From Klebsiella pneumoniae (lineage in GTDB: Bacteria > Pseudomonadota > Gammaproteobacteria > Steroidobacterales > Steroidobacteraceae): a stretch of DNA of 40,574 bases. The notes under the pieces were generated by a model, which did not search any database, had not been told where the DNA came from, and worked only from the letters and a program-made list of their open reading frames with translations. Below, one piece after another: positions 15,703 to 36,750 of the stretch. The stretch is from contig CAMAQZ010000014.1 of the NCBI GenBank assembly GCA_945860725.1, positions 1 through 40,574 on the forward strand, read 5' to 3'. A program made the translations under genes and the position numbers. The stretch's first letter is position 1. Every line of letters starts with the position of its first letter.

Positions 15703-18276
15703 TCAGCGGAACGAGTACGAGAAGTCGACGCCCCACGCTCGGCCGGCCGAGTCGTGGATGAACGAACCGCCGAACTCCGGCGCAGGGATGATCTCCTGCA
15801 GGTAGTTCTCGTCGGTGATGTTGCGGCCCCAGGCCGTGACGCCGAACTTGCCGTTGCTCACGCCGATGCGGGCGTTCACGGTGCTGTAGGCGTCACGCTT
15901 CATCTTGTCGAAGGTGCCCTGACCGAACTGAAAGTAGGTGAACAGGTTCGGCAGGCGCTGATTCTGCACCGGGTGGAACCAGGTCTCGCCGACCAGCGAC
16001 GCGTCGACGCGGGCGTTGAGCGTCCAGTCCGAGCTGCTAAAGGGCAGCTCGAAATCGACGCCGACGTTGCCCGTGTACTCCGGCGCGTACGGCACTTCGC
16101 CGCCCGCCGTGTACGGCCGACCGACGTACTTGTCGATATTGCCGTTGGTGCTGCCGTAGGCGGCGAACAGCGAGAAATTGTCGTTCACGCGCCAGCGGCC
16201 GTCGAGCTCGAAGCCCTTGATGGTGACCTCGTCGAGGTTGGTGACGACGCGCAGCAGACCGAAGGGACCCGCGAAGAAGTTAAAGAACTGCATGTCGTCG
16301 ACCTTCGTCTGGTAGTAAGCCGCGTTGAGGCTCACCGTCCGGTCGAAGAAGAACGATTTGATGCCGATCTCCGCCGCCTTCGACACTTCCTTACGGTACT
16401 TGTCGTTGACGTCGGTGATGTTGAGCACCGCATTCGCACCGCAGGTGGGCGGCAGGAACGAGGCGCCGAGGCAGAGCGTGGTGCTGCCAGCGCGGCCGTA
16501 GGCCGTGTTGACCGTGGCAGCGCTGCCCGAGGAGTTGAAGCCGCCGCTGCGGAAGCCGTAGCCATACGACGCGTAGAGCGCGACATCGCCGGTCGCCTTC
16601 CAGTTGGCCGAAAGCTTCGGCTGCAGCTGGCTGAAGGTCTCCGAGCGGCCCGGGATGCCGGTCGTGGCAAACGCCGGGGTCGCGGTGTACGCCGGGTTGA
16701 TGTACGGGTTAGAGAAGAAACTGAAGCCCGGGGTCTGCGCGCGGCAGCTCAACGTGTTGCCCGCCGAGCAGCGGGGCACGTTATTGCTGACCGAGCGGTC
16801 CTCGCTGTCGTAGCGAAGCGCCAACGCCAGCTCGAGCTGGTCGGTGACGTTATAGGCCACCTGACCGAAGACCGCGTAGACCTTGCTCTTGAAGTCGTCG
16901 TCATACAGCAGGTCGGTCGGGTTGAGGCCGCTCGTCGGCACGAAGGGCTTGGCGGTCAGACCCTTGTTCAGGTCAGAACCCTGCGAGACCACGACGCGGC
17001 GCTTGATGTCGGCGGCGTAGAGGCCCGCGACCCAACGCAGCTCCTCGTCGCCCGGCGAGGTCAGGCGCAGCTCGATGCTGGTGTCCTTCTGGTCGCGCTG
17101 CTGGTACTGGTAGCCGTCGCAGGTACTCGGGCCGTACGGCGGCGTGAAGCCGGCGCCGTTGCCGCCCGCCGGGGTCAGCCAGATGCTGGACGGGATGCCG
17201 AAGAACGGCGCCACGTAGCCCGGGTCGGTAAGTGTGGCGTCGTTGGTGCTGCGGCAGGTGGCATCAAGCGCGTAAAGCAGGAACGCCGCACTGGTGCCGT
17301 CGGTGAGGAAGTAGTTCTTTTGGTCGTTATAGGCGAGGTAGCTCGTCAGGGTGCCGACGCCGACCTCCCACTCGCCCTTGACCGACAGGTTGATGTTCTC
17401 CTGCTCGTTCTGCGGGGCGACGTTGTTGATGTAGCGGAAAACGTTCTTGTTCGGGTCCGCGTAGAACGCCGGCGCGTTCAGTCCCGCCGCCGCATCCGAC
17501 AGCGCGATGGTGGCGTTGAAGTTGATCGCGCCCGCATCGATCTGGGAGTACTTGGCCTTGACGTCGATCTCGCCGCCGGCCGCATCGAACATCAAGCGAC
17601 CCTGGACGCCGGTCTCCTCAAAGAAGTCGACGCAGTCGTCGCACTTCAACTTCAGGTTCTCCCACTGGCCGTCGGTCTTGCGTGTGTAGGCCGAAAGCGA
17701 GCCGCGGACGGTGTTGCTGAGCGCGCCGCCGGCGTAGAGGCTGGCCTTGAAGCTGCTGTCGGAGCCGTAGCCGCCACTCACGTCGAACTCTGTGCTGTCA
17801 CCGGGCTTGCGGGTGGTGATGATCATGGCGCCGGCCACCGCGTTGCGGCCGTAGAGCGCGCCCTGCGGGCCCTTCAGGATCTCGATCTGCGAGACGCCGG
17901 AAAGTTCCTGGTTCAGGGCGTTCGGGTTGGTCTGCAGCACGCCGTCGATGACGAGCGCGAAGTTCGTCTCGGCGTCACGGCCCGTGTTGATGCCGCGGAT
18001 ATTCACCTGCAGGTCGCCGGCTTCGGCGGTCTGCACCTGCGACACGCCCGCGGTCAGGGCGATGAAGTCCTGGGGCCGCTCGATGCCGGCGGCCTTGATG
18101 TCTTTAGCCGTGAACGCCGTGATGGTCACAGGCACGTCCTCGATGCGCTCCGCACGCTGGCGGGCCGTCACCACAACTTCCTCGAGCTGCGCTTCCTGTG
18201 CGCCCGCCGGACCGGCGGCGATGGCAGCGATCACGCTCGCCCCGATGAGGGAGAGCCTACGATTGCGGTAGAACAT
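15703..18276 (-). CDS. TonB-dependent outer-membrane receptor, catabolite-type
   Basis: An 857-residue outer-membrane receptor. It has a signal peptide (RRLSLIGASVIAAIAAGPAGA), a TonB box in EEVVVTARQR, a plug domain (IEDVPVTITAF, then LQVNIRGINTG, then EILKGPQGALYGRNAVAG) and a 22-strand-type barrel ending WGVDFSYSFR with terminal aromatic residues. This is the large PGPQGTLYGRN-type receptor class that many environmental proteobacteria use for organic substrates rather than only siderophores. Loops carry cysteine pairs (KCDDC). ATG at 18276 is chosen because GGAGG sits 6 bases upstream and the signal peptide begins there; the open frame continues to 18435 without support. It lies beside the CoA-transferase and acyl-CoA dehydrogenase cluster, so it may import that pathway's substrate. 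Confidence 0.9.
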   Translation of the reverse strand: MFYRNRRLSLIGASVIAAIAAGPAGAQEAQLEEVVVTARQRAERIEDVPVTITAFTAKDIKAAGIERPQDFIALTAGVSQVQTAEAGDLQVNIRGINTGRDAETNFALVIDGVLQTNPNALNQELSGVSQIEILKGPQGALYGRNAVAGAMIITTRKPGDSTEFDVSGGYGSDSSFKASLYAGGALSNTVRGSLSAYTRKTDGQWENLKLKCDDCVDFFEETGVQGRLMFDAAGGEIDVKAKYSQIDAGAINFNATIALSDAAAGLNAPAFYADPNKNVFRYINNVAPQNEQENINLSVKGEWEVGVGTLTSYLAYNDQKNYFLTDGTSAAFLLYALDATCRSTNDATLTDPGYVAPFFGIPSSIWLTPAGGNGAGFTPPYGPSTCDGYQYQQRDQKDTSIELRLTSPGDEELRWVAGLYAADIKRRVVVSQGSDLNKGLTAKPFVPTSGLNPTDLLYDDDFKSKVYAVFGQVAYNVTDQLELALALRYDSEDRSVSNNVPRCSAGNTLSCRAQTPGFSFFSNPYINPAYTATPAFATTGIPGRSETFSQLQPKLSANWKATGDVALYASYGYGFRSGGFNSSGSAATVNTAYGRAGSTTLCLGASFLPPTCGANAVLNITDVNDKYRKEVSKAAEIGIKSFFFDRTVSLNAAYYQTKVDDMQFFNFFAGPFGLLRVVTNLDEVTIKGFELDGRWRVNDNFSLFAAYGSTNGNIDKYVGRPYTAGGEVPYAPEYTGNVGVDFELPFSSSDWTLNARVDASLVGETWFHPVQNQRLPNLFTYFQFGQGTFDKMKRDAYSTVNARIGVSNGKFGVTAWGRNITDENYLQEIIPAPEFGGSFIHDSAGRAWGVDFSYSFR

Positions 18277-18355: not shown

Positions 18356-18472
18356 CGCCTACGCGTTGCGCCACCGAAAATATGTTGCGCCGTTACAACA
18401 CTGGCGTCGCCAGAACGGCCGGGCCTGCGCGACAACGCGCTGCGGGTACACGGCCTCGCGGGCTAAACGGAC

Positions 18473-19702
18473 TCAGTCGCCGCCCTTACCCACCGTCTTC
18501 GCCGCCTGATCGGCGCTCATCGCCGCACCCGCGGCCTCGAGGTCCGCGATGGTGGCGGCATCGAGCCCGGCCTCGCGCAGGATCTCCTCGGTGTGCTCGC
18601 CGAGACGCGGCGCCGGACGTGTGCTCATCGCCGGGGTCGAGCCGAAGTTCACCGGGAAGGACGGCATCCGCAGACGCCCCTCGGTCGGGTGGTCCTGGAA
18701 CTGCCAGAAGCCGGTCGCAACCAAATGCGGGTCGGTCGCGAGATCTTCGAGCGTGTTGACCACGATGTGCGGGATGCCCGTGGGGGCGAACACCTGCAGC
18801 CATTCGGCGGTGCTGCGGGTGGCCAGGATCTCGGCCGTGATCTGCGAAGTCGCATCGATGTTGCGTACGCGATCGACGAGCGTCCGGAAACGGGCGTCGT
18901 CGAAGAGTTCACTGTATCCAGTCACGGTGCAGAACTTCTCCCAGTGGCTGTCGAGGTACGGCAAGACCGAGAGGTAGCCATCGAGGGTCTTGCAGGGCTT
19001 GCGATGCTCGCTCAGCAGGCGCACATAACCCGGCTTGCCCTCGGGCGGATCGAAAGTCATCCCCCAAAGATGCTCGGCCATGACGAAGTTGACCATGGTC
19101 TCGAACATCGGGACCTCCAACTCCTGACCTTGACCGGTGCGCTCGCGGTGGAAGAGCGCGGCCGTCACGCCGTACACCACCGTGAGCGCCGTGGTCTTGT
19201 CGGCGACGATCGTGGGCACATAGCGTGGCTCGCCCAGGACCATTTCATTGAGCATGGCGATGCCGCTCGCCGCCTGGATGGAATCATCGAGCGCACCCAG
19301 CGCACCGTACGGCCCCTGCTTCGCGTAGCCGTACGCGCCGCAGTAGATGAGCCGCGGGTTCACCTGCCGGAGGTCGGCGTAGTCGAGACCGAACCGGGTC
19401 ATGACCTGGGGCCGGTTGTTGTGGATGAAGACATCGGCGTCCTTCACCATCGCGAGCAGCGCATCGCGGGCGCCCGGGACGCGCAGATCGAGCACGATGC
19501 TGCGCTTGTTGCGGTTGCAGTTGAGATAGAACGCGCCCATGCCCGGGCTCCGGGCGGCACCCAAGGCGCGGAGGCTGTCGCCTTGCGGCTGTTCGATCTT
19601 GACGACGTCGGCGCCCATGTCGGCGAGCATCTGGCACGCCCAAGGTCCGAGCACGACGCTCGTCATCTCCACCACCTTCACGCCATGCAACGGCCCCGGC
19701 AT
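18473..19702 (-). CDS. Family III CoA-transferase (CaiB/BaiF)
   Basis: A 409-residue enzyme moving CoA between carboxylic acids through an aspartyl-CoA thioester. It shows the family opening GVKVVEMTSVVLGPWACQML, the CoA-binding ADMGADVVKIEQPQGD, the NCNRNKRSIVLDLR segment and the catalytic region with D139 in DDSIQAASG. The C terminus (RLGEHTEEILREAGL) is typical. The start at 19702 has GGAGG six bases upstream (19709-19713); the open frame extends to 19801 over the divergent promoter region and is rejected. Together with the two plus-strand homologues it makes three family members within 6.5 kb. Confidence 0.9.
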   Translation of the reverse strand: MPGPLHGVKVVEMTSVVLGPWACQMLADMGADVVKIEQPQGDSLRALGAARSPGMGAFYLNCNRNKRSIVLDLRVPGARDALLAMVKDADVFIHNNRPQVMTRFGLDYADLRQVNPRLIYCGAYGYAKQGPYGALGALDDSIQAASGIAMLNEMVLGEPRYVPTIVADKTTALTVVYGVTAALFHRERTGQGQELEVPMFETMVNFVMAEHLWGMTFDPPEGKPGYVRLLSEHRKPCKTLDGYLSVLPYLDSHWEKFCTVTGYSELFDDARFRTLVDRVRNIDATSQITAEILATRSTAEWLQVFAPTGIPHIVVNTLEDLATDPHLVATGFWQFQDHPTEGRLRMPSFPVNFGSTPAMSTRPAPRLGEHTEEILREAGLDAATIADLEAAGAAMSADQAAKTVGKGGD

Positions 19703-19743
19703 CACGGTCCTCCGACGGTACGGCATCGACACGCCTTCGATGA

Positions 19744-19749
19744 TACGCT
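19744..19749 (+). promoter_or_regulatory. -10-like TACGCT, 9 bp before the EamA gene and its operon
   Basis: TACGCT, nine bases (CCGACGCCC), then ATG at 19759. The same layout with a nearly identical spacer (TACACT, CCGACGGTC, ATGACG) precedes the gene at 32865. This would be the main promoter of the nine-gene catabolic operon. Confidence 0.45.
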
Positions 19750-19758
19750 CCGACGCCC

Positions 19759-20736
19759 ATGACGCCCGAACCCCCGCCCCCCAAGGCCGCCTTCCGAACA
19801 CCGGCCCTCGATCCGGCGGGTGCGCTGTTCGTTGCGCTGGCGGCCATGCTGTTCGCGACCAAGGGCATCTTCGCCAAGCAGCTCTACGCGCTCGGCGTCG
19901 GTTATGTGGCGCTCGTGGCCACCCGCGCGACGCTGGCGCTGCCGCTCTTCTGGGCGTTCGCGCTGCGGCGCGACGGTTGGGCGGTCATCCGCAGCACACC
20001 GGCCTCGGCCATCGCCGCCGCCGCTGCCGTCGGCGCACTCTGTTACTACGCCGGCGCGCTGCTCGATTTCCTGGCGCTCACGATGATCGATGCCAGCATC
20101 GAGCGGGTCCTGATCTTCAGCTACCCGGCGATGGTGGTGCTGTTTACGGCACTGCGGGATCGACAGTCACCCCCGCGGCGGGTCTTGGCCGCCGCCGCAC
20201 TGACCTACCTCGGCATTTTCTTCACCATGGGCGGGTTCGATCTGACCGAACTGCGCGCCAACCTGCTCGGTGCGGTGCTCGTGCTCGGCTCGGCGCTCAG
20301 CTACGCGGTCTACTTCCTCGTCAGCGAGAAGTACACCCGCGAGCTCGGCAGCCCGCGATTCACGCTGTTCGCGATGACCGCCGCCGCGGCTTGCCTGATC
20401 CCCCATTTCCTCTTCACGCGGGATGCCGGTGCCGAACTCTCCGCCATCACCCCCGCCGCCTGGCTGCTGCTCGCCCTGATCTCGGTGCTGTGCATGTTCT
20501 TGCCGGCTCTGCTGCAGGCCGAGGGCGTCCGGCGCATCGGCGCGCAGCGTGGTGCGGTGCTCTCGACGGTCGGTCCACCGACCACCGTGCTGATCGCCTG
20601 GGCGCTGCTCGGTGAGCGGTTGGGTGGCTGGCAATGGCTCGGCATCGCGCTCATCGTCGGCGGCATCCTCGCGCTCGATCTCGCCCGCGCGGCGGTCGAC
20701 CCGAAGCGCGTCGACGAACCCGCTGCCGAGCGTTGA
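19759..20736 (+). CDS. EamA-family (DMT) transporter
   Basis: A 325-residue, 10-helix inner-membrane transporter with two EamA repeats. The first begins ALFVALAAMLFATKGIFAKQ and the second LGAVLVLGSALSYAVYFLVS; both have the Pro- and Gly-rich helices typical of the drug/metabolite transporter superfamily, and the end GERLGGWQWLGIALIVGGI is diagnostic. Substrates in this family vary widely (amino acids, metabolites, export or import). It is the first gene of the plus-strand cluster, 34 bp before the MaoC gene, so it may move the pathway's substrate or a product. Confidence 0.88.
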   Translation: MTPEPPPPKAAFRTPALDPAGALFVALAAMLFATKGIFAKQLYALGVGYVALVATRATLALPLFWAFALRRDGWAVIRSTPASAIAAAAAVGALCYYAGALLDFLALTMIDASIERVLIFSYPAMVVLFTALRDRQSPPRRVLAAAALTYLGIFFTMGGFDLTELRANLLGAVLVLGSALSYAVYFLVSEKYTRELGSPRFTLFAMTAAAACLIPHFLFTRDAGAELSAITPAAWLLLALISVLCMFLPALLQAEGVRRIGAQRGAVLSTVGPPTTVLIAWALLGERLGGWQWLGIALIVGGILALDLARAAVDPKRVDEPAAER

Positions 20737-20770
20737 CAGGCGGCGGCATGGGCGACAGGATTCCCTCGCC

Positions 20771-21310
20771 ATGTCGCACTCCCCCATCGAGCTCGCTCCC
20801 GGTCGCTACCGGGAATCCTTCGGTCGTCACTACGAGGACTTCGTGGTCGGCGATGTCTACGAACATCGTCCGGGCCGCACCCTGACCGACGCGGACAACA
20901 CTTGGTTCACGCTGCTCACGATGAACACTCACCCGCTGCACTTCGACGCCGAGTACGGCAAGGCGTCGGAGTTCGGCCGCTGCATCGTCGCCTCGCCGCT
21001 GACCCTCGCCGTGCTGGTCGGCATGAGTGTGAGCGATGTCAGCCAGAAGGCCATCGCCAACCTCGGCTGGAAGGACATCCGCATGACCGCGCCGGTGTTC
21101 CCCGGCGATACGCTCTACGCCGAGTCCGAAGTCCTCGACAAGCGCGATTCGAAGTCGCGCCCGACCGCGGGCGTCGTCACCGTGCGCACCCTCGGCCGCA
21201 ACCAGCACGGCACGGTGGTCTGCGAGTTCGAACGCAGCATCCTGATCGCCAAGCGCGGTTTCGCGGTGGATGACCCGAAACCCGCAGCGGACGACCGCAC
21301 CGGAGCATGA
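20771..21310 (+). CDS. MaoC-family enoyl-CoA hydratase/dehydratase
   Basis: A 179-residue hot-dog-fold protein. It resembles the mesaconyl/methylmalyl-CoA hydratase-like branch of MaoC: an N-terminal GRHYEDFVVGDVYEHRPGRT, the hydratase motif region TMNTHPLHFDAEYGKASEFG (Asp and His of the catalytic dyad) and FPGDTLYAESEVLDKRDSKS. It would add water across an enoyl-CoA double bond made by one of the neighbouring dehydrogenases. ATG at 20771 is chosen because homology starts there; the longer frame from 20612 overlaps the EamA gene. Its stop overlaps the next start as ATGA (21307-21310). Confidence 0.87.
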   Translation: MSHSPIELAPGRYRESFGRHYEDFVVGDVYEHRPGRTLTDADNTWFTLLTMNTHPLHFDAEYGKASEFGRCIVASPLTLAVLVGMSVSDVSQKAIANLGWKDIRMTAPVFPGDTLYAESEVLDKRDSKSRPTAGVVTVRTLGRNQHGTVVCEFERSILIAKRGFAVDDPKPAADDRTGA

Positions 21311-22461
21311 ACATGGACATCGACGACACCGATCGCGAGATCCTCGACAGCATCGAGCGTTGGGCGGAGCGCGAACTGCGGCCGGTCGCCCGCAAGTTCG
21401 ACCATGCCGACGAGTACCCCGAGGACATCGTCGAGCAGATGAAAGGGCTTGGTCTCTTCGGTGCCACCATCGCCCCGGAGTTCGGCGGCCTCGGGCTGTC
21501 GGCTTCGACCTATGCGCGTCTGGTGATGAGCATCGCCTCGGTCTGGATGGCGCCGGTCGGGATCTTCAACTCCCACCTCATCATGGCGGCCTGCGTACAG
21601 CGGCACGGCACCGACGCCCAGAAGCGGCACTGGCTGCCACGCTTCGCGAGCGGCGAGATCCGTGGCGGCATCGGCCTCACCGAGCCAAACGCCGGCACCG
21701 ACCTGCAGGCCATCCGCGCCGTCGCCCGGCGCGACGGCGACACCTATGTGATCAACGGCACCAAGACCTGGATCACCAACGGCGTCTACGGCAGCTGCTT
21801 CGGTGTGCTGGTGAAGACCGACTCTGCCGCGCAGCCCCGTCACAAGGGCATGACCATGTTCCTTTGCGAAAAAGGCGAAGGCTTCCGCACCGCCAAGAAG
21901 ATCCGCAAGCTCGGCTACAAGAGCATCGACAGCGCCGAACTCGTGTTCGAAGATTTCCGCGTGCCTGCAGCGAACCTCATCGGCGGCGAGGAGGGACGCG
22001 GTTTCCAACAAGCGGTCGGCGGGCTCGAGCTCGGTCGCATCAACGTCGCCGCGCGCGGCGCCGGTATCGCCGCCGCCGCGCTGCGCGACGCCCTGCGCTA
22101 CGCGCAGCAGCGCGAGACCTTCGGCAAACCGATCGCGCAGCACCAAGCCATCCAGTTGAAGCTCGCCGACATGGCGACCCGGGTGGAAGCCTCACGCCTG
22201 CTCATCGAGCAGGCGGCCCGCAAGTACGACACCGGCGAACGCTGCGACCTCGAGTCCTCGATGGCAAAACTGTTCGCGTCCGAAGCCGGCGTCGAGAACA
22301 GTCTCGAGGCGATGCGCATCTTCGGCGGCTACAGCTATTCCACCGACTTCGATGTCGAGCGCTACTACCGCGACGCGCCGCTGATGTGCATCGGCGAGGG
22401 TACCAACGAGATGCAGCGCATCATCATCGCGCGCCAGCTCATCGAACGGAATCCGGTGTGA
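21307..22461 (+). CDS. Acyl-CoA dehydrogenase (complete active site)
   Basis: A 384-residue FAD enzyme forming the alpha-beta double bond of an acyl-CoA. It has the N-terminal helical domain, the FAD/substrate motifs GGIGLTEPNAGTDLQAI and YVINGTKTWITNG, and the C-terminal helix domain with RETFGKPIAQHQAIQLKLAD. The catalytic base is E364 in CIGEGTNEMQR. The length matches short/medium- or branched-chain family members. It is coupled to MaoC by an ATGA overlap and to the next CoA-transferase by a TGATG overlap (22459-22463), so the hydratase, dehydrogenase and transferase are probably made together. Confidence 0.92.
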   Translation: MNMDIDDTDREILDSIERWAERELRPVARKFDHADEYPEDIVEQMKGLGLFGATIAPEFGGLGLSASTYARLVMSIASVWMAPVGIFNSHLIMAACVQRHGTDAQKRHWLPRFASGEIRGGIGLTEPNAGTDLQAIRAVARRDGDTYVINGTKTWITNGVYGSCFGVLVKTDSAAQPRHKGMTMFLCEKGEGFRTAKKIRKLGYKSIDSAELVFEDFRVPAANLIGGEEGRGFQQAVGGLELGRINVAARGAGIAAAALRDALRYAQQRETFGKPIAQHQAIQLKLADMATRVEASRLLIEQAARKYDTGERCDLESSMAKLFASEAGVENSLEAMRIFGGYSYSTDFDVERYYRDAPLMCIGEGTNEMQRIIIARQLIERNPV

Positions 22462-23696
22462 TGTCGGCGCAGCGCACGGCTGCCGGCGACCCTCGGACGC
22501 CCTCGCCCACCTTGCCGCTCGCCGGGCTGCGGGTGCTCACCTTCGAGGCGTTCGGTGCGGGACCCTTCGGCTCGATGTACCTTGCCGACCTCGGCGCCGA
22601 GGTCATCAAGATCGAGAACCGCGCGCAGGGCGGCGATGCCACGCGCGGCATGGGACCTTTTTTCTTGGGCGAGCACGATTCGCATTTCTTCCAGACCTTC
22701 AACCTCAACAAGCGCAGCGTCTGCCTCGACCTCAAGCAACCCGCAGGACGCGCGGCCTTCGTTCGGCTGGTCGCGACCTCGGACGCCGTGCTCAACAACC
22801 TGCGCGGCGACCAGCCCGACAAGCTCGGTCTCACCTACGACGCCTTGCGCGACGCCAATCCACGCATCATCTGCGCGCACCTCTCAGCCTATGGACGCGA
22901 CAACGAGCGACGCGGCTGGCCGGGTTACGACTACCTCATGCAAGCTGAGGCGGGTTTCCTGCATGTGACCGGCGAGCCGGGCTCACCGCCCTCCCGCATG
23001 GGTCTTTCCATCATCGACTACATGACCGGCATCACCACCGCGCTTGCCATGGTCTCGGCGCTGCTCGGCGTGGCCCGTGGCGGCAGCGGAGGAGACATCG
23101 ATGTCAGCTTGTTCGATGTCGCACTGCACCAGCTCTCATACCCCGGCACCTGGTACCTCAACGACCAGCTCGTCACGGGCCGCGCACCCCGCAGCGCGCA
23201 CCCGACCGCAACGCCGGTGCAGCTCTTCAAGACTGCCGACGGCTGGATCTTCGTGATGTGCATGACGGAAAAATTCTGGCAGGAACTGCTGCGCGTGATC
23301 GCCGCACCGGCGGTGGCCGCCGATCCGCGGTTTGCGGACATGGCGGCGCGACGCGAGCACCGCGATGTCCTGACGGCAGCGCTCGACGGTGTGTTCGAGA
23401 CCGCCACCACCGTACACTGGCTGGAGACGCTGCAAGGCGTGCTGCCCGCCGCACCGGTCTACGACCTCGCGCAGGCGCTCGACAACCCTTTCCCGATCGC
23501 GAACGGCATGATCCGCAATACGCCACATCCGCTGCGCGCCGATTTCCGCAGCTTCGCGAACCCGATCAAGCTCGATGGCAAGCGCCTGCCGGCCGCCAGC
23601 GGTCCGGCGCTCGGCGCCGACACCGACGCGGTGCTCGGCGATCTGGGCTATACGGCTGAGGAACTCGCCGCGCTGCGGGCCTCGGACATCACCTGA
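22461..23696 (+). CDS. Family III CoA-transferase (CaiB/BaiF), second copy
   Basis: A 411-residue CoA-transferase. After a Pro-rich leader it shows LPLAGLRVLTFEAFGAGPFG, LADLGAEVIKIENRAQGGDA, LNKRSVCLDLKQPAGR and the catalytic D157 in GYDYLMQAEAG. A flexible glycine segment (ARGGSGGDIDVSLFD) precedes the second lobe. The ATG at 22461 shares its A with the stop of the preceding acyl-CoA dehydrogenase. The next homologous gene starts 10 bp after its stop; such back-to-back pairs may work as a heterodimer or act on two different acids. Confidence 0.91.
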   Translation: MSAQRTAAGDPRTPSPTLPLAGLRVLTFEAFGAGPFGSMYLADLGAEVIKIENRAQGGDATRGMGPFFLGEHDSHFFQTFNLNKRSVCLDLKQPAGRAAFVRLVATSDAVLNNLRGDQPDKLGLTYDALRDANPRIICAHLSAYGRDNERRGWPGYDYLMQAEAGFLHVTGEPGSPPSRMGLSIIDYMTGITTALAMVSALLGVARGGSGGDIDVSLFDVALHQLSYPGTWYLNDQLVTGRAPRSAHPTATPVQLFKTADGWIFVMCMTEKFWQELLRVIAAPAVAADPRFADMAARREHRDVLTAALDGVFETATTVHWLETLQGVLPAAPVYDLAQALDNPFPIANGMIRNTPHPLRADFRSFANPIKLDGKRLPAASGPALGADTDAVLGDLGYTAEELAALRASDIT

Positions 23697-23706
23697 AGAG
23701 CGCCCG

Positions 23707-24861
23707 ATGAAACTCGCAGGCCTGCGCGTCATCGACCTCTCGCTGTTCCTCCCCGGGCCGCAGGCCTCCCTCTTGATGGCCGACCATGGCGCCTCGGTGA
23801 TCAAGGTCGAGCCACCGGGCGAAGGCGAGCCGAACCGCCATATCGGCGCCACGATCGGCGGCCACAGCGTGTTCTTCCGCAACACCCACCGCGGCAAGCA
23901 GAGCCTCTGCCTCAACCTCAAGCACGCCGAGGCGCGTGAGGCGTTGCTGCGCCTCGCCGAGACGGCAGATGTCTTCATTGAGGCGTTCCGCCCGGGCGTG
24001 GTCGATCGCCTCGGGGTCGGCTACGCCGCCGTGTCGGCGCGCAACCCGCGCATCGTGTACTGCTCGATCTCCGCCTTCGGTCAGGATGGCCCCTATCGCG
24101 ACATCCCCGCGCACGACCTTGCGACCGAGGCTTACGCCGGCCTCGTCAGTCTGAACCTCGGCAATGACGGCGAACCCACGATGCCGCATGTGCCGGTCGC
24201 GGACATGGCCGCTTCACTGCTCGCTTTCGGCGGCATCATGATGGCCTTGCTGCGCCGCGAGCAGAGCGGACGCGGCGACTTCATCGACATCTCGATGCAC
24301 GACTGCGCGCTCTCCTGGACCCCAAACATCACCGGGCAGGTGTTCGCCCATGACCGCGCGCCCGTGCCGAAGCACGAGCGCAGCTTGGGGGGCGGCGCTT
24401 TCTACAACATCTACCGCACCCGCGATGGCCGGCACATCGTGCTCGGCGCGCAGGAGCTCAAGTTCGTGCGTGCCCTGCTCGGCGAGTTCGGCAGGCCCGA
24501 CCTCGTGGCGCTCGCCGAGCGTGGACCGGGCCCGCACCAGCAGCCCTTGATCGACTTCCTACGGGAGCGTTTCGCGACCCGCAGCCGCGACGAGTGGGTC
24601 GAGTGGTTCGCCGGGCGGGACATCGGGTTCGCGCCGGTCAAAGACCTGCGCGAGGCCTTCGACGACCCCCAAGCCGAGGCGCGCGGCATGCGCCTGCGCG
24701 ACGCCGACGGTCTCGAGCACATCGGTCTGCCGGTGAAGTTCCGCGACGAACCGGGTACACCCCGCTTCACGCTGCCCGCAATCGGCGAGCACAACCGGCT
24801 CATCCTGCGCACGCTCGGCTATGATGACGCGGCGATAGACGCCATGGAGAAGGCGCGCTGA
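23707..24861 (+). CDS. Family III CoA-transferase (CaiB/BaiF), third copy
   Basis: A 384-residue homologue with MKLAGLRVIDLSLFLPGPQA at the start, MADHGASVIKVEPPGEGE for CoA binding, and catalytic D137 in AHDLATEAYAG, where the usual Gln four residues later is Glu. It is only distantly similar to the neighbouring copy, so it is not a recent duplicate. ATG at 23707 is used since the fold begins at once; the frame open from 23575 overlaps the previous gene. The next gene begins 27 bp downstream. Confidence 0.9.
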   Translation: MKLAGLRVIDLSLFLPGPQASLLMADHGASVIKVEPPGEGEPNRHIGATIGGHSVFFRNTHRGKQSLCLNLKHAEAREALLRLAETADVFIEAFRPGVVDRLGVGYAAVSARNPRIVYCSISAFGQDGPYRDIPAHDLATEAYAGLVSLNLGNDGEPTMPHVPVADMAASLLAFGGIMMALLRREQSGRGDFIDISMHDCALSWTPNITGQVFAHDRAPVPKHERSLGGGAFYNIYRTRDGRHIVLGAQELKFVRALLGEFGRPDLVALAERGPGPHQQPLIDFLRERFATRSRDEWVEWFAGRDIGFAPVKDLREAFDDPQAEARGMRLRDADGLEHIGLPVKFRDEPGTPRFTLPAIGEHNRLILRTLGYDDAAIDAMEKAR

Positions 24862-24867
24862 ACTCTC

Positions 24868-24873
24868 TACACT
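24868..24873 (+). promoter_or_regulatory. Possible internal -10 element TACACT
   Basis: TACACT lies 15 bp before the ATG at 24889, in the longest gap (27 bp) of the central part of the operon. It could give a secondary transcript for the downstream four dehydrogenase/SDR genes. Weak evidence. Confidence 0.2.
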
Positions 24874-24888
24874 CCCGGGGTTGATGAC

Positions 24889-26130
24889 ATGAATTTTGAC
24901 TACAGCGACCGGGTCCGATCCCTGAGTGCGCAGTTGCTGGCCTTCATGGACCGTCATGTCTATCCGAACGAACGGGTGTTCCTGCAGGAGATCGCGGCCA
25001 ACCGTGCTGCCGGCAAGGTGTGGACGCCGACCGAAGTCATCGAGCGCTTGAAGATCGAAGCGCGCGCTGCCGGCCTCTGGAACCTGTTCCTGCCGAACAG
25101 CCGGCGTGCACCCGAAGGCCTCTCCAACCTCGAGTACGCGCCGCTCTGCGAGATCATGGGACGCGTGCCGTTCGCCGCCGAGGTCTTCAATTGCTCGGCG
25201 CCCGACACCGGCAACATGGAGACGCTCGAGCGCTATGCGAGCGAGGCGCTGAAAGATCGCTGGCTCGAGCCGCTGCTGCGCGGCGAAATCCGCTCGGCCT
25301 TCCTCATGACCGAGCCGGAGGTCGCCTCTTCAGACGCCACCAACATAGCCTGCCGCATCGAACGCGACGGCGATCACTATGTGATCAACGGTCGCAAGTG
25401 GTGGAGTTCGGGCGCCGGCGACCCGCGCTGCAAGATCTACATCGTCATGGGCCGCACCGACCCCGATGCGCCACGCCACGCTCAACAAAGTATGGTGCTG
25501 GTGCCGGCGGAGACGCCGGGCATCGAGGTGCTGCGGCCGCTGCACGTGTTCGGCTATGACGATGCTCCGCATGGCCACATGGAAGTCCTGCTGAAGGATG
25601 TCCGGGTGCCGGTCGCGAACATGCTGCTCGGCGAGGGCCGCGGTTTCGAGATCGCTCAAGGTCGGCTCGGTCCCGGACGCATCCACCACTGCATGCGCTC
25701 GATCGGGGTCGCCGAGCGCGCGCTCGAACTCATGTGCCAACGACTGAGCGCGCGGGTCGCGTTCGGCAAGCCGATCGCCACCCAAGGCGTCTGGCTGGAG
25801 CGCATCGCCGACTCGCGCGTCATGATCGAACAGGCGCGCCTGTTGACGCTCAAGGCGGCTTGGATGATGGACACCGTGGGCAACAAGGTCGCGCGTGGCG
25901 AAATCGCGATGATCAAGGTCGCCGTCCCGAACGTCGCGCTGCAGGTGCTCGACTGGGCGATCCAGGCGCACGGCGGAGCGGGCGTCAGCGACGATTTCCC
26001 GCTGGCCTATGCGTGGGCAAGCCAACGCACGCTGCGCCTCGCGGATGGCCCGGATGAAGTGCACCGCAACTCGATCGCGAAGTTCGAGCTCGGTCGGCAG
26101 GTGCCGCGCCCGGCGGAGTCCGCGCAATGA
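24889..26130 (+). CDS. Acyl-CoA dehydrogenase, ACAD10/11-like
   Basis: A 413-residue FAD acyl-CoA dehydrogenase. It begins [20 protein letters not shown] and carries the [36 protein letters not shown] and [20 protein letters not shown] motifs of the ACAD10/11 group, which handles long or modified (for example branched or phosphorylated) acyl-CoAs. At the site of the usual C-terminal glutamate it has [16 protein letters not shown], normal for this group. Its stop overlaps the SDR start as ATGA (26127-26130). Confidence 0.9.
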
Positions 26131-26930
26131 AGGATCTGTTCTCCGTCACCGGCAAGACCGTGCTCATCACCGGCGGCTCGCGCGGCATCGGCGAGATGAT
26201 GGCGGCTGGCTTCCTGGCCGGTGGCGCCAAGGTCTACATCAGCGCACGTAAAGCCGAGGTGTGTCATGCCACGGCAGCGCGCCTCGTCGCAGCGAACGGC
26301 GGCGAATGCATCGCCCTGCCCGCCGACCTCTCCACGCTCGAGGGCGTCACCGCCCTCGCCACGGCGTTCACCGCCCGCGAGCCCCGCCTCGATGTGCTCA
26401 TCAACAACGCCGGCGCCTCCTGGGGTGCGAAGCTCGGGGAGTTCCCCGAGGCGGGCTGGGACAAGGTCATGGACACCAATGTGAAGGGTCCGTTCTTCCT
26501 CACCCAAGCGCTGCTGCCCGCGTTGCGCGCCGCCGCCGCCGCCGGGACGCCGTCCCGCGTGATCAACATCGGCTCCGTGGATGGCCGCGGCACGCCGATG
26601 TTCGATACCTTCTCGTACGGCCCGTCCAAGGCGGCGATCCACCATCTCACCAAGATGCTGGCCGCACGACTCGCACGCGAGCGCATCCTCGTCAACGCCA
26701 TCGCACCCGGCCCTTTCCCCACCTGGATGCTCAGCACCGGTGTCGGCTTTGGCGGCAAGATCGACGGCGACGGCGTCGACTGGGAGAAGGTCGGCAAGCT
26801 GAACCCGAGCGGTCGCGTCGGTACGCCGGAGGACATCGCCGGGCTCGCGATCTTCCTCGCCTCGCGCGCCGGCGAGTACATCGTCGGCGAAGTCATCGCC
26901 TGCGATGGCGGCTTGTTGGCGGCGCGCTAA
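26127..26930 (+). CDS. SDR-family oxidoreductase
   Basis: A 267-residue classical short-chain dehydrogenase. The nucleotide motif TGGSRGIG is at 15-22, NNAG at 93-96, catalytic Ser150, and the Tyr-Lys pair Y164 and K168 in YGPSKAA. The absence of an acidic residue right after the glycine motif region (SARKAEV at 39-45) hints at NADP(H), though this is not decisive. In context it would oxidise a hydroxyacyl-CoA made by hydration, or a ring or side-chain alcohol. It overlaps the upstream dehydrogenase by 4 bp, and the next gene begins 3 bp after its stop. Confidence 0.92.
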
Positions 26931-26933
26931 CCC

Positions 26934-28118
26934 ATGTCCCTCGAGACTTTCCGTCGCGACACCCGAGCATGGCTCGAAACGAATTGCCCTGCGGCGATGC
27001 GTACTGCGCTCGATGAAAAAGAGGTCGTCTGGGGCGGACGCAACGCGTGGTTCCCGAACGACGACGCCCGACTCTGGCTCACGCGCATGGGCGAGCGCGG
27101 TTGGACGGCACCCACCTGGCCCGCGATATACGGCGGTGGTGGCCTCACGCCCGCCGAGAACGCGGTGCTGCAGGAGGAATTGCGGCGTATCGGGGCGCGT
27201 GCGCCGCTCTGGTCGTTCGGTCTTTGGATGTTCGGGCCGGTGCTGCTCGAGTTCGGCAACGAAGCGCAGAAGCTCGCGTGGTTGCCGGACATCATCCGCG
27301 GCCGCATCCGCTGGTGCCAAGGATATTCCGAACCCGGCGCCGGCTCCGACCTCGCGAGCCTCGCCACGCGCTGCGAGGACCGCGGCGACCACTTTCTCGT
27401 CAACGGACAGAAGATCTGGACCAGTTACGCCGACAAAGCCGACTGGATGTTCTGCTTGGTGCGCACCGACACCACCGCCAAGCATGCCGGCATCTCCTTC
27501 ATCGTGTTCGACATGCGCACATCGGGCGTGGAGACGCGTCCGATTCTGCTGATCTCGGGCGACTCACCGTTCTGCGAGACCTTCCTCACCGATGTCCGCG
27601 TCCCCAAGGACCAACTGGTCGGAACCCTCCACGGCGGCTGGCAGATCGCCAAACGCTTGCTGACCCACGAGCGTCAGAGCATCTCGACCGCGGCCTTCGG
27701 CGGTGGCGTCGGGCTCGATCTCGTGACCGCCGCCCAGCAGAGCGTCGGCCTGATGTGCGGTCAACTCGCGGACGGCGACCTGCGCGCCCGCATCGCCGCG
27801 TTCCGCATGCAAGAGCGTGCCTTCCACCTCACGGTGCGCCGCGCGCAAGCCGAAGCGCGTGCGGGCGGCAACATCGACCACCTCGCATCGCTTTTCAAAT
27901 ACGCAGGCGCTTCCGTCAACCAACAGCGCCTCGAACTTTTGGTGGAAACGCTCGGTCTCGGCGGGCTCGGCTGGGAGGGCGACGGCTTCCATCCTGACGC
28001 GCTGCGCGCGACGCGCCATTGGCTGCGCTCAAAGGGCAACTCCATCGAGGGCGGCACCTCCGAGATCAACCTCAATGTGATCGCCAAGCGCGTACTTGGC
28101 CTGCCGGACCCCACCTGA
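26934..28118 (+). CDS. Acyl-CoA dehydrogenase, probable catalytic subunit of a heteromer
   Basis: A 394-residue FAD dehydrogenase of the FadE26/FadE28-like branch known from steroid side-chain degradation. It has SLETFRRDTRAWLETNCPAA, the WTAPTWPAIYGGGGLTPAEN lid, CQGYSEPGAGSDLASL and FLVNGQKIWTSYADKADWMF. Its C-terminal active-site segment is complete, with E372 in SIEGGTSEINLNVIAKRVLG. It is followed after 1 bp by a shorter homologue whose equivalent glutamate is missing. Such alpha/beta pairs form heterotetramers with one working FAD site per pair; assignment to that architecture is inferred from the pairing. Confidence 0.9.
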   Translation: MSLETFRRDTRAWLETNCPAAMRTALDEKEVVWGGRNAWFPNDDARLWLTRMGERGWTAPTWPAIYGGGGLTPAENAVLQEELRRIGARAPLWSFGLWMFGPVLLEFGNEAQKLAWLPDIIRGRIRWCQGYSEPGAGSDLASLATRCEDRGDHFLVNGQKIWTSYADKADWMFCLVRTDTTAKHAGISFIVFDMRTSGVETRPILLISGDSPFCETFLTDVRVPKDQLVGTLHGGWQIAKRLLTHERQSISTAAFGGGVGLDLVTAAQQSVGLMCGQLADGDLRARIAAFRMQERAFHLTVRRAQAEARAGGNIDHLASLFKYAGASVNQQRLELLVETLGLGGLGWEGDGFHPDALRATRHWLRSKGNSIEGGTSEINLNVIAKRVLGLPDPT

Positions 28119-28119
28119 C

Positions 28120-29289
28120 ATGACACGCCCCCTCACCGACGACCAACGCCTGCTGCAGGACAGCGCCCGCGAATTCTTTGCGGAGCGGGCACCTGTGAAG
28201 GCACTGCGTGCCGACCGCGACGCCGGCCGCCCCTTTGACCCGACGCTCTGGAAAGAGATCGCAGCGCTCGGCTTCGCGGGCGCAGCGGTCCCGGAAGCCT
28301 ACGGCGGTTCGGGCATGGGTTGGCGGTCGCTCGGCCTCGTGCTCGAGGCCGCGGGGCGCACGCTCGTCGGCTCGCCGCTGCTGCAGAGCGCGCTGATCGG
28401 TGTCGCGGCGCTCGAGACGCTGGGATCGGACGCGCAACGCGCGGCTTGGTTGCCTGCTATCGCGGCAGGCGAGATGACCACGGCCTTGGCGTTTGATGAG
28501 GGTGCGCACCACGCGCCGTCGCGGATCGCGATGCGCGCCGTGCGTGAGCCCGGCGGCTGGCGGCTCGAGGGATACAAACGCTTTGTGCCGGACGGTGCCA
28601 CCGCAAGCCACCTGCTGATCGCAGCGCTCGCCGCGCCGACGCCTAACGCGCCCGAAGGCCTGACCCTCTTCTGTGTCCCGGGTTCGACCGCAGGACTCGT
28701 CCGCAAGCCGCTCGCGATGGCGGACAGCCGCGGCATGGCAGACCTAGACCTCACGGCCGTGCGCGTCGCAGAGGATGCGGTGCTCGGCAGCGTCGGTGAG
28801 GCCGCGACCGCCCTTGAAGCGGTGCTCGATACGGCCCGAATCGGTCTCGCCGCCGAGATGCTGGGCGCCGCGGATGCGCTGTTCGCGCTTACCCTCGATC
28901 ACCTCAAGACCCGGCGCCAATTCGGCCAGCCGATCGGTGCCTTCCAGTCGCTGCAACACCGCGCGGCGCGCATGTTCGTCGACCTCGAACTCACCCGCAG
29001 TTGCGTGCTGGCGGCGCTCGATGCGCTCGATGATGCCGCAGGCGCAGGCAGATCGGTGCAATCGGCGGCGCAGGTCGTCCCGCTCGCCTCGCTCGCCTCG
29101 CTCGCCAAGGCGCGCGCCGGCGATACGCTGCACCTCGTCAGCAACGAGGCGGTGCAATTGCACGGCGGCGTCGGCATGACCGACGCCTACGATGCAGGCC
29201 TTTACCTCAAGCGGGCACGGGTCCTCGAGACCCTCTACGGCACCGCCGGTTGGCATCGCGACCGCAGCGCGAGGCTGGACGGGTACTGA
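28120..29289 (+). CDS. Acyl-CoA dehydrogenase-like, probable non-catalytic partner subunit
   Basis: A 389-residue acyl-CoA dehydrogenase fold protein. The N-terminal domain is recognisable (LTDDQRLLQDSAREFFAERA, GFAGAAVPEAYGGSGMGW), as is the late helix RRQFGQPIGAFQSLQHRAAR. However, the C-terminal active-site motif reads LETLYGTAGWHRDR, with Tyr373 where catalytic members have Glu before Gly-Thr, and the middle FAD motif is replaced by TTALAFDEGAHHAPSR. This is the pattern of the beta subunits of heteromeric dehydrogenases. ATG at 28120 lies 1 bp after the upstream stop. It is the last gene of the operon. The final ELxGGVGMTD helix is intact. Confidence 0.88.
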   Translation: MTRPLTDDQRLLQDSAREFFAERAPVKALRADRDAGRPFDPTLWKEIAALGFAGAAVPEAYGGSGMGWRSLGLVLEAAGRTLVGSPLLQSALIGVAALETLGSDAQRAAWLPAIAAGEMTTALAFDEGAHHAPSRIAMRAVREPGGWRLEGYKRFVPDGATASHLLIAALAAPTPNAPEGLTLFCVPGSTAGLVRKPLAMADSRGMADLDLTAVRVAEDAVLGSVGEAATALEAVLDTARIGLAAEMLGAADALFALTLDHLKTRRQFGQPIGAFQSLQHRAARMFVDLELTRSCVLAALDALDDAAGAGRSVQSAAQVVPLASLASLAKARAGDTLHLVSNEAVQLHGGVGMTDAYDAGLYLKRARVLETLYGTAGWHRDRSARLDGY

Positions 29290-29350: not shown

Positions 29351-30541
29351 ATGTTCGAGACCCTCGTCCGCGTCCCGCCCGATCCGATCCTCAGCGTCTC
29401 GGCGGCCTTCCAAGCCGACGACTCGCCGGACAAGGTCGACCTTGGGGTCGGCGTCTACAAAGACGAGCACGGCAAGACCCCGATCATGCGTGCCGTGCGC
29501 ACCGCCGAGCAGGAACTGCTCGCAGAGCAATCCACCAAGACCTATGTCAGCCCGATCGGCAACGCGGGTTGCAATGCACTGATGACGGAACTCGTGCTTG
29601 GCAGCGATCACTCCGGTCGTAAGGCCGACCTGTCGCTCACGCAGACCCCGGGCGGCAGCGGCGCACTGCGTCTCGGCGCCGAGTTACTGCAAGCGGCACG
29701 ACCGGGCGCCACCATCCTCGTCAGCGACCCGACCTGGGCCAACCACATCCCCCTGCTCGGCAGCGTCGGCCTGAAGGTCGATCGCTATCCCTATTACGAC
29801 CCGCAGCAGCCGCGCGTGCTCTTCGATCGCATGCTGGGCCACCTCGACGCCCAGCCCGCCGGCACCATCGTCGTGCTGCACGCCTGCTGTCACAACCCGA
29901 CCGGCCAGGATCTCAACCCCGCGCAATGGAGCGAGGTCGCCTCCGTCGTCGCCCGCCGCGGCTTGCTGCCGTTCATGGATCTTGCCTACCTCGGACTCGG
30001 CGAAGACCTCGACCGCGACGCAGCTGCGGTGCGACTGATGGCGCGCGCCGTGCCCGAGATGCTGGTCGCGGTGTCCTGCTCCAAAAATTTCGGCATCTAT
30101 CGTGAACGCACCGGCGTGCTCATCGCGCTCGGTGCGGGTGCGGAGCGCGCCGCCATCACCACCGGTCAACTCGGCCGCCTCGCCCGCACGCTCTGGTCGA
30201 TGCCGCCGGATCATGGCGCCGCGATCGTGCAGCGCGTGTTGTCACAACCGGCGCTACGCCAGGACTGGATGACCGAGCTCTCTCACATGGCCCGTCGCAT
30301 CAACGGGCTGCGCGCCCTGCTCGCCGATCGACTGAGCGCGGCCGCCAGCACCGACTACAGTTGGGTCGGCGCCCAACGCGGGATGTTCTCGCGGCTGCCG
30401 CTCTCGGCCACGCAGGTCGGATTCGCACGCGAGCAGCACCGCCTCTATATGCCACCCGATGGCCGCATCAACATCGCCGGGGTCAGCCCCGCCAATGTCG
30501 ATCGGGTCGCCGCCGGCCTCATCGCTGCGGTGCGCACATGA
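29351..30541 (+). CDS. Aromatic/aspartate aminotransferase (class I, AspC/TyrB family)
   Basis: A 396-residue PLP enzyme transferring amino groups between aspartate or aromatic amino acids and 2-oxoglutarate. The start FETLVRVPPDPILSVSAAFQ and VDLGVGVYKDEHGKTPIM are characteristic of the AspC/TyrB subgroup. Other motifs are TQTPGGSGALRLGAELL (98-114), SDPTWANH (125-132), HNPTGQDL (181-188) and the PLP lysine K245 in SCSKNFGIYRERTG. Length is standard. The longer frame from 29192 overlaps the previous gene and is rejected. The stop overlaps the next start as ATGA (30538-30541). Confidence 0.93.
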   Translation: MFETLVRVPPDPILSVSAAFQADDSPDKVDLGVGVYKDEHGKTPIMRAVRTAEQELLAEQSTKTYVSPIGNAGCNALMTELVLGSDHSGRKADLSLTQTPGGSGALRLGAELLQAARPGATILVSDPTWANHIPLLGSVGLKVDRYPYYDPQQPRVLFDRMLGHLDAQPAGTIVVLHACCHNPTGQDLNPAQWSEVASVVARRGLLPFMDLAYLGLGEDLDRDAAAVRLMARAVPEMLVAVSCSKNFGIYRERTGVLIALGAGAERAAITTGQLGRLARTLWSMPPDHGAAIVQRVLSQPALRQDWMTELSHMARRINGLRALLADRLSAAASTDYSWVGAQRGMFSRLPLSATQVGFAREQHRLYMPPDGRINIAGVSPANVDRVAAGLIAAVRT

Positions 30542-31872
30542 GCGCAGTCCCGAGCGAGGCAGCGCTGCGCGCCTGGTGGATGCCCTTCACCCACAACCGG
30601 CATTTCAAGGCCCAACCGCGCCTGATCGTCGCGGGTCAAGGTGCGTACTACACCCTCGCCGACGGGCGGCGGGTGTTCGACGGGTTGTCCGGGCTCTGGT
30701 GCAGTCCACTCGGGCATTCGCCGGCGCGGGTCGTCGAAGCCGTGCAAAAGCAGGTCGCCACGCTCGATTTCGCGCCGAGCTTCCAGATGGGCCATACCGC
30801 CGCCTTCACCCTCGCCGAGCGCATCGCCTCGCTCGCCGGACACCCGGACGACAAGGTCTTCTTCGTCAACTCCGGGTCCGAGGCGGTCGACACCGCCCTC
30901 AAGATCGCGGTCGCCTACCATCGTGTACGCGGGGAGGCCTCGCGGACCCGCATCATCGGTCGCGAGCGCGGCTACCACGGCGTCGGCATGGGCGGCATCT
31001 CGGTGGGCGGCATCCTCGCCAACCGCAAGATGTTCGCGCCGCTCATGATCCCGGGCGTCGACCATCTGCCGCACACTTGGGACACCTCGAAAATGGGGTA
31101 TACGCGAGGTCAACCCGATTGGGGCCTGCATCTCGCCGAAGATCTCGAGCGCATCGTCGCCCTGCACGATGCGAGCACCATCGCCGCCGTGATCGTCGAA
31201 CCCATGCAAGGTTCGACCGGCGTCATCGTCCCGCCGAAGGGCTATCTGCAGCGCCTGCGCGAGATCTGCACCAAGCACGGCATCCTGCTGATCTTCGATG
31301 AAGTGATCACCGGGTTCGGCCGTCTCGGCACGCCCTTCGCCGCCGATTTCTTTGGCGTCCAGCCTGATATGACCACCTTCGCCAAGGCGGTCAACAACGC
31401 CACCGTGCCGCTCGGCGGCGTGCTCGCAGCGTCACAGATCTACGACACCTTCATGACGGGTCCCGAACACATCATCGAGTTCTTCCACGGCTACACCTAC
31501 TCCGCCCATCCGCTCGCGGTAGCCGCCGCACACGCCACGCTCGATGAATTGGCCGCTGCAGACCTCATCAACCGTGCCGCCGCGCTGGCGCCGGTGCTCG
31601 AAGATGCCATCCACTCGCTGCGGGGCGAAGCACTGGTCACCGACATCCGCAACCTTGGCCTTGCCGCAGCCATCGATGTCACGCCGGTTGCGGGAAAACC
31701 TGCGATGCGCGCCTACCAGGTGTTCGAGCAGGCGCTCTCGCGCGGTCTGATGTTGCGGTTCACGGGCGAGACACTCGCCCTCGCTCCGCCCTTCATCTCC
31801 TCCGAGGACGAGATCCGCGGCGCGGTGTCCGCCCTTCGGGAGTCGCTGCAGGCGGTGTCGAGCGCCGGCTGA
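30538..31872 (+). CDS. Class III aminotransferase, omega-amino acid:pyruvate type
   Basis: A 444-residue PLP enzyme of the class III family, most like omega-amino acid (beta-alanine):pyruvate aminotransferases. WMPFTHNRHFKAQPRLIV opens the substrate region. DGLSGLWCSPLGHSPARVVE, FVNSGSEAVDTALKIA (109-124), FDEVITGFGRLG (253-264, Asp254 to the pyridine nitrogen) and the PLP lysine K283 in TFAKAVNNATVPLGG follow. The coupling to a class I aminotransferase by a 4-bp overlap is unusual; together they could channel amino groups from a terminal amine to aspartate or aromatic amino acids, but the true substrates are unknown. Confidence 0.92.
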   Translation: MSAVPSEAALRAWWMPFTHNRHFKAQPRLIVAGQGAYYTLADGRRVFDGLSGLWCSPLGHSPARVVEAVQKQVATLDFAPSFQMGHTAAFTLAERIASLAGHPDDKVFFVNSGSEAVDTALKIAVAYHRVRGEASRTRIIGRERGYHGVGMGGISVGGILANRKMFAPLMIPGVDHLPHTWDTSKMGYTRGQPDWGLHLAEDLERIVALHDASTIAAVIVEPMQGSTGVIVPPKGYLQRLREICTKHGILLIFDEVITGFGRLGTPFAADFFGVQPDMTTFAKAVNNATVPLGGVLAASQIYDTFMTGPEHIIEFFHGYTYSAHPLAVAAAHATLDELAAADLINRAAALAPVLEDAIHSLRGEALVTDIRNLGLAAAIDVTPVAGKPAMRAYQVFEQALSRGLMLRFTGETLALAPPFISSEDEIRGAVSALRESLQAVSSAG

Positions 31873-36744: not shown

Positions 36745-36750
36745 GCCGGT

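Follow-up and report, generated by a model that had tools for sequence, protein, structure and literature searches.

A run of genes for acyl-coenzyme A (acyl-CoA) metabolism on contig CAMAQZ010000014.1 (assembly GCA_945860725.1, filed as Klebsiella pneumoniae and placed by GTDB in the Steroidobacteraceae) is a mosaic of a stable core and a variable tail, rather than the single nine-gene system that a sequence-only reading had taken it for. The window, that is, the whole stretch of DNA analysed, is the entire contig of 40,574 bases, from an uncultured bacterium with a genome of 2.15 Mb (98.85% complete, 110 contigs). Its core consists of four genes, encoding a MaoC-family hydratase, an acyl-CoA dehydrogenase (ACAD1) and two proteins of the family III CoA-transferase fold (CaiB2 and CaiB3). 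Judging from gene families and neighbourhoods, we lean towards a CoA-dependent route for a dicarboxylic acid of the 2-substituted succinate type as the role of this core, in which CaiB3 may be a CoA-level epimerase. Each gene named in the sequence-only reading corresponds to an open frame with a strong Pfam match, in the order it gave. The features are as follows, with start codons of our choosing.

15703..18276, minus strand: TonB-dependent receptor, Plug and beta-barrel domains (Pfam PF00593, PF07715)
18473..19702, minus strand: CaiB1, family III CoA-transferase (CoA_transf_3; PF02515, 355 bits)
19759..20736, plus strand: EamA/DMT-type transporter (PF00892)
20771..21310, plus strand: core, MaoC-family hydratase of the RipB/Ich kind (best model NF038241, 226 bits, curated cut-off 340)
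21307..22461, plus strand: core, ACAD1, acyl-CoA dehydrogenase (Pfam; best solved relative FadE3, 4iv6, 428 bits)
22461..23696, plus strand: core, CaiB2, family III CoA-transferase (PF02515, 379 bits)
23707..24861, plus strand: core, CaiB3, candidate CoA-level epimerase of the family III fold, its active-site His being that of alpha-methylacyl-CoA racemase, AMACR (PF02515; frame from 23701)
24889..26130, plus strand: variable tail, ACAD2, acyl-CoA dehydrogenase (Pfam)
26127..26930, plus strand: variable tail, SDR oxidoreductase (PF13561/PF00106)
26934..28118, plus strand: variable tail, ACAD3, pimC-like large-subunit acyl-CoA dehydrogenase (TIGR03204, 256 bits, cut-off 624)
28120..29289, plus strand: variable tail, ACAD4, pimD-like small-subunit acyl-CoA dehydrogenase (TIGR03203, 212 bits, cut-off 653)
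29351..30541, plus strand: flank, aromatic/aspartate aminotransferase (NF006719, 494 bits, above the cut-off of 377)
30538..31872, plus strand: flank, class III omega-aminotransferase, AptA type (NF052567, 670 bits, above the cut-off of 500)

The division into core and tail follows from gene order in related genomes. We searched for the MaoC protein in 60 relatives and took 30 regions for comparison. A close match is present in 22 of the 23 same-genus genomes, with best matches at 74-98% identity, and the remaining genome (G023) has only a weak one; the same-genus set comprises 23 places from 22 genomes, in which a gene below 45% identity was not scored as present. MaoC, ACAD1, CaiB2 and CaiB3 stand together in 20 of these 23 places, and the remaining three are cut short by a contig end within ACAD1 or CaiB2, a degree of conservation far beyond chance. 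Upstream, CaiB1 and EamA are found in all 15 places with at least 7.5 kb before MaoC, and the TonB receptor in 14 of them, the fifteenth having a receptor at 43% identity. The tail behaves differently: among the 16 places where 5.5 kb or more of sequence follows CaiB3, ACAD2 occurs in 8, and SDR, ACAD3 and ACAD4 in 4 each. The expectation that the nine plus-strand genes and the TonB receptor would travel together in relatives was thus borne out for the core and the TonB receptor, CaiB1 and EamA, and failed for the tail, which varies even inside the genus.

The tight packing that had suggested one operon is itself real. The spacings from EamA through ACAD4 are 34, -4, -1, 10, 27, -4, 3 and 1 bp, in agreement with the overlaps or gaps of 0-34 bp described earlier for the plus-strand run. 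On the minus strand the TonB receptor lies 196 bp from CaiB1 and is therefore not tightly coupled. One could read the whole of 15703-29289 as a single steroid- or terpenoid-type catabolic operon, as the close spacing over 19759-29289 would suggest. The adjacent pair ACAD3/ACAD4 also resembles the heteromeric PimC/PimD, which are its best curated families (256 of the 624 and 212 of the 653 bits required), and in three same-genus places ACAD2, SDR and ACAD3 stay side by side, joined by ACAD4 in two. Because the tail is variable, we nevertheless regard such an operon as improbable: each tail gene is missing in at least half of those 16 same-genus places while the core stays, the core is found without most tail genes outside the genus, and in some relatives the place of the tail is taken by a sulfatase and a receptor-like protein. 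This last arrangement is seen in several relatives that lack SDR or ACAD3/ACAD4 (for instance L038, 13707-15641, and L040, 9013-11538); the sulfatase was typed from one member and the TonB-receptor-like protein was recognised by eye. Two genes that come in pieces were also noted among the relatives. ACAD3 of L034 (G007:C29, 13596-14914) aligns as two pieces, which a frameshift or an assembly error would fit, and the MaoC gene of G010 (C513:8350-8756, L060) is in two pieces, one with an internal stop.

In its composition the core is not undescribed in kind. According to the parts of Gonner et al. 2025 (PMC12290011) on which we draw, the cluster PA0878-PA0883 of Pseudomonas aeruginosa and the genes ich, mcd, mmgE/msi, ict and ccl of Cupriavidus necator provide a CoA-transferase that activates methylsuccinate, the dehydrogenation of methylsuccinyl-C4-CoA to mesaconyl-C4-CoA, the onward conversion via citramalyl-CoA to acetyl-CoA and pyruvate, and MmgE as a methylsuccinate isomerase. 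Deletions support the same gene functions in the corresponding part of De Witt et al. 2023 (PMC9875883), and in these portions of the two papers the substrates demonstrated for genes of this kind are itaconate, methylsuccinate and related C5 diacids. The combination of CaiB, ACAD, MaoC, CitE and MmgE is this published set (PMC12290011, as excerpted), so that the earlier statement that no cluster of such composition was known is not supported. The window has in common with it the CoA-transferase, the dehydrogenase and the hydratase, many relatives also the CitE-type lyase and MmgE/PrpD, and a non-thiolytic end would be a further shared trait. What sets the window core apart is the lack of an adjoining lyase, regulator or MmgE, together with the extra protein CaiB3 and its AMACR-type His. 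In the open-licence literature we found no account that brings most of these enzyme names together for a gene cluster, and other literature may hold one.

Could the window then simply encode the itaconate/methylsuccinate pathway? CaiB2 would be Ict, ACAD1 would be Mcd and MaoC would be Ich, with Ccl encoded elsewhere in the genome and CaiB3 acting as a helper. The families and the neighbourhood match, RipB/Ich is the best curated family of the window MaoC, many related clusters include MmgE and CitE, and C5 diacids are substrates already demonstrated for such genes. We still consider this identity rather unlikely, since the MaoC protein reaches 226 bits where the Ich cut-off is 340, neither MmgE nor a lyase stands beside the window core, and the lyases of the same-genus clusters are just 37-40% identical to 8khl (among the best 40 rows), which we take from its name to be the P. 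aeruginosa lyase PA0883. In the same 40 rows, the lyases of Azospirillum-like clusters are 39-45% identical to 8khl, that of Variovorax 50% and that of locus L219 55%. The curated cut-offs for Ich and Ccl are likewise not reached by the window MaoC and by the relatives' lyases, respectively. The upstream genes differ too: the excerpted text on the published clusters does not name TonB, CaiB1 or EamA, and P. aeruginosa has a dicarboxylate transporter instead.

Clusters with the published gene set occur in other bacteria. Plasmid clusters of Azospirillum (L185) and Caballeronia (L189; unannotated, read by tblastn) contain MaoC, MmgE/PrpD, ACAD, one gene of the CaiB2 type, GntR and CitE, and the same set is present in Rhodococcus (L188), where a FadR/GntR gene precedes MaoC. 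The CaiB close by in Pseudosulfitobacter (L190) belongs to a type other than CaiB2. Window and Azospirillum proteins are 60% (MaoC), 69% (ACAD1) and 54% (CaiB2, against the sole CaiB there) identical, and CaiB3 has no counterpart above 31% in that cluster. In family f21, which belongs to the same class as the window genome and which we take to be Pseudomonadaceae, a close ACAD occurs in 11 of 248 genomes; of eight regions examined six have the full set, with CitE lying past the contig end in L211, and two (L213 and L214, ACAD at 46-47%) are without it. We looked for the characterised cluster of either P. aeruginosa or C. necator through plasmids, MmgE, MaoC, ACAD and the Ich family, and obtained clusters of the same kind and not the reference. 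A C. necator plasmid region (L186) has MmgE alone, and among 14 regions around MmgE or MaoC matches one (L202) has the set. The start of a published primer gave three matches, each with three mismatches, in 298 genomes, and no MaoC was seen in the frames or neighbours inspected. L208, L218, L219, L220, L221 and L224 were rejected as reference-type clusters on account of other gene arrangements. Two of these, L208 and L221, have a different cluster, in which MaoC and CitE are each present twice alongside MmgE and ACAD, and which may encode a further diacid pathway of similar style.

RipB/Ich also figures in the itaconate cluster of the Yersinia type, RipABC, whose RipA we take not to belong to the CaiB family. 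In the passages of PMC12290011 that concern it, this cluster has three genes and no capacity to use methylsuccinate; it contains no dehydrogenase, unlike the window core with its ACAD1.

The core extends well beyond the genus. Named genomes encode at least 593 relatives of the MaoC protein, of which we kept the best 80; their record titles span Alpha-, Beta- and Gammaproteobacteria, and the isolates among them include Kaistia, Sphingomonas, Shewanella, Stenotrophomonas and Peristeroidobacter. Leaving aside 24 loci with short flanks and 4 that resemble the window's own genus yields 52 loci outside the genus whose flanks reach at least 4.5 kb on each side of MaoC. Because the 80 loci were chosen as the closest by MaoC, the counts describe close relatives. 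Within 6 kb of MaoC, ACAD1 is present in 46 of the 52 loci, CaiB2 in 39, CaiB3 in 36, a CitE-type lyase in 39 and MmgE in 23, and all five stand together in 20. In an evenly drawn sample of the phylum, the RipB/Ich model at E 1e-60 found 5 of 299 genomes, the window's own included; of the other four, three have the match inside such a cluster (L202, L222 and L223) and one (L224) does not.

The nearest named records are titled Gammaproteobacteria, Steroidobacteraceae, Nevskiaceae or Proteobacteria, and one Klebsiella pneumoniae; isolate names suggest that the nearest relatives are freshwater bacteria. Metagenome-assembled genomes titled Klebsiella pneumoniae (L103, CAMCBU010000007.1), Janthinobacterium lividum, Candidatus Planktophila lacus and Limnohabitans (L112, L115 and L119) carry the cluster, and at least the Klebsiella title of L103 looks wrong. 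Beside the core in Kaistia terrae DSM 21341, an isolate whose set is complete (L130, 14886-20475), we recognised by eye CoA-transferase-like, AMP-binding ligase-like and amidase-like genes and a second MmgE, with peptide-type ABC transport genes upstream. On plasmid pTM2 of Tistrella mobilis (L187, L123) the module is split, with MmgE-ACAD1-CaiB2-CaiB3 near 640 kb and CitE-MaoC near 452 kb.

Within the genus, a CitE-type lyase adjoins MaoC in 5 of the 23 places, where some of the others are on contigs that are short upstream; one genome of the same family has it too. In the window's own genome the sole lyase match is a 38% relative on another contig (C70), beside an aldehyde dehydrogenase-like gene, and MmgE/PrpD is absent from the window and, at E 1e-60, from the genome. 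Pfam searches of 28 window frames, two of which matched nothing, recovered no acyl-CoA ligase, thiolase or regulator, as had been noted before. For the regulator this holds for the window and does not extend to its relatives, which often have a GntR-type gene directly upstream of MaoC (at least 13 of 30 regions, one member typed). An amidohydrolase lies between the TonB receptor and CaiB1 in at least 16 of the 30 regions (again with one member typed).

From these families one can draw a provisional pathway. The acid would enter via the TonB receptor; CaiB2 would transfer CoA to it from a donor such as succinyl-CoA; CaiB3 could, if needed, invert the configuration at the carbon alpha to the thioester; ACAD1 would introduce a 2,3-double bond; MaoC would add water; and a CitE-type lyase would cleave the product without a thiolase. 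As there is no lyase beside the core in this genome, that enzyme would have to act in trans. The TonB receptor, EamA and CaiB1 would form an upstream part, conserved in the genus, for uptake or a second activation, and ACAD2, SDR, ACAD3 and ACAD4 a lineage-variable add-on that shortens a larger precursor. The proposals made from the window alone, namely that the substrate is branched or dicarboxylic, that it is activated by CoA transfer and that the route ends without thiolysis, gain plausibility because the core of many relatives sits with the itaconate/methylsuccinate gene set, CitE-type lyase included. Several observations pull the other way: the missing lyase, regulator and MmgE beside the window core and the low identity of same-genus lyases to 8khl; the failure of all 24 genomes of the genus to reach the RipB/Ich cut-off with their MaoC, and of ACAD3 and ACAD4 to reach theirs; the relatives' CitE-type lyases, which fall below the cut-offs of their best curated families, citE and RipC/Ccl; and 3 of the 52 non-genus loci, in which MaoC has none of the five partners.

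The most distinctive member of the core is CaiB3. The earlier count of three CoA-transferases stands in so far as three CoA_transf_3 proteins are present, and needs amending in that CaiB3 has a racemase-type active-site His. Its residues His136, Asp137, Asp166 and Glu250, invariant in 18 of 18 rows, align with H126, D127, D156 and E241 of the racemase MCR (PDB 1x74), and all 15 CaiB3 rows compared with MCR hold the residues aligned with R91, H126, D127, D156 and E241. At position 126 of MCR, His is found in 15 of 15 CaiB3 rows, Tyr in 16 of 16 CaiB2 rows and in three solved transferases, and Leu in 5 CaiB1 rows. The AMACR active-site residues His126, Asp156 and Glu241, which are mutated in 8rp3, 8rp4 and 8rp5, are all present in CaiB3. 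Matches to AMACR structures score 157 (2g04) and 127 bits (1x74) for CaiB3 and 85 and 80 bits for CaiB1, and CaiB2 does not appear among the matches listed. In an unrooted tree, in which two transferase rows drew a long-branch warning, CaiB3 forms a clade of its own (98/98), placed between AMACR (100/100) and the branch to which all transferases belong (99/98), and CaiB1 is a clade separate from CaiB2 and CaiB3. AMACR_L230, which is out of frame, was excluded from tree and profile, and L227, L231, L233, L235, L236 and L240, lacking a usable frame, were not used. No AMACR relative in the window's own genome is closer than CaiB3 itself. In a distantly related Cupriavidus cluster of CitE-MaoC-ACAD-CaiB the gene that follows encodes an AMACR-type protein (507 bits), which hints independently that modules of this sort can include a CoA-level epimerase.

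Other results make epimerisation by CaiB3 less compelling. D127 and D156 are common to all transferase rows and a Glu fills the E241 column in 12 of 16 CaiB2 rows, so that His126 alone is diagnostic, which weakens the epimerase reading and strengthens the view of CaiB3 as a transferase. Over its whole chain the CaiB3 profile scores 270 bits against CoA-transferases and 213 and 195 against AMACR. The predicted structure lies nearer to SUGCT than to the racemase (Z 31.1 against 27.4), with a mean predicted local distance difference test score of 71 and values below 50 in the active-site region, and the fold comparison did not separate racemase from transferase. Nor is a CoA-level epimerase obviously needed, because the dehydrogenase of the studied pathway takes both enantiomers, according to the relevant part of PMC12290011. 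The idea that CaiB3 replaces MmgE came from MmgE clusters having just one CaiB and found no support in the wider counts: both lie within 6 kb of MaoC in 22 of the 52 loci, with CaiB3 lacking MmgE in 14 and MmgE lacking CaiB3 in 1 (MmgE counted from 100 bits up). The MmgE proteins of these 22 loci are mostly divergent, at about 130-540 bits compared with about 580-760 in single-CaiB clusters, several of which trained the profile, and their function may therefore differ.

CaiB2 and CaiB3 might accordingly be two subunits of one heteromeric, BbsEF-like CoA-transferase, or two separate transferases, with no racemase role for CaiB3; we see this as a possibility to be taken seriously, if not the likelier outcome. 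Their genes adjoin in many loci, the conserved Asp is kept in both, and profile and fold place CaiB3 closer to transferases than to AMACR, but the racemase-type His is invariant in CaiB3, and Azospirillum, Caballeronia and six f21 regions have clusters with just one CaiB, which is of the CaiB2 kind. BbsEF is the succinyl-CoA:benzylsuccinate CoA-transferase of the Bbs pathway, which uses a dehydrogenase for a 2-substituted succinate and ends with a thiolase. The window resembles it in two adjacent family III genes and a dehydrogenase, and differs in its low scores and in the lyase of many relatives. BbsE and BbsF are weak matches (127 and 100 bits for CaiB2, 108 and 96 for CaiB3), ranking below formyl-CoA transferases and SUGCT for both proteins, which makes the heteromeric version less likely. 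With AMACR, CaiB3 shares the aligned residues and the diagnostic His, and it is set apart from AMACR by the separate clade and a total score nearer the transferases.

Two further groups of genes in the window adjoin or lie beyond this run. The two aminotransferases, omitted from the sequence-only reading, overlap each other by 4 bp and start 61 bp after ACAD4. The aspartate-type gene recurs in 14 and the omega-type gene in 9 of the 16 same-genus places with room, and the former (29351..30541) is probably outside the module. At 38977-40071 on the minus strand lies a member of the Porphyromonas-type peptidyl-arginine deiminase family (PF04371, 411 bits), adjoining a second TonB receptor at 36733-38865.

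The run also illustrates that tightly spaced genes need not form one pathway. Taken at its broadest, and only tentatively, the core would stand for a widespread proteobacterial pathway for 2-substituted succinates other or larger than methylsuccinate, and tied in this genus to TonB uptake. CoA transfer would be followed by an epimerisation, for which CaiB3 would represent a new AMACR-like branch of the family III fold, and then by dehydrogenation, hydration and cleavage by a lyase. If this is true, the core, which occurs in Alpha-, Beta- and Gammaproteobacteria, serves to break down a branched diacid from the environment, and the third CaiB protein is a CoA-ester epimerase that is currently annotated as a CoA-transferase. 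Work on single enzymes could tell which diacid is used, and whether a racemase active site emerged among the transferases of this fold or was retained alongside them.

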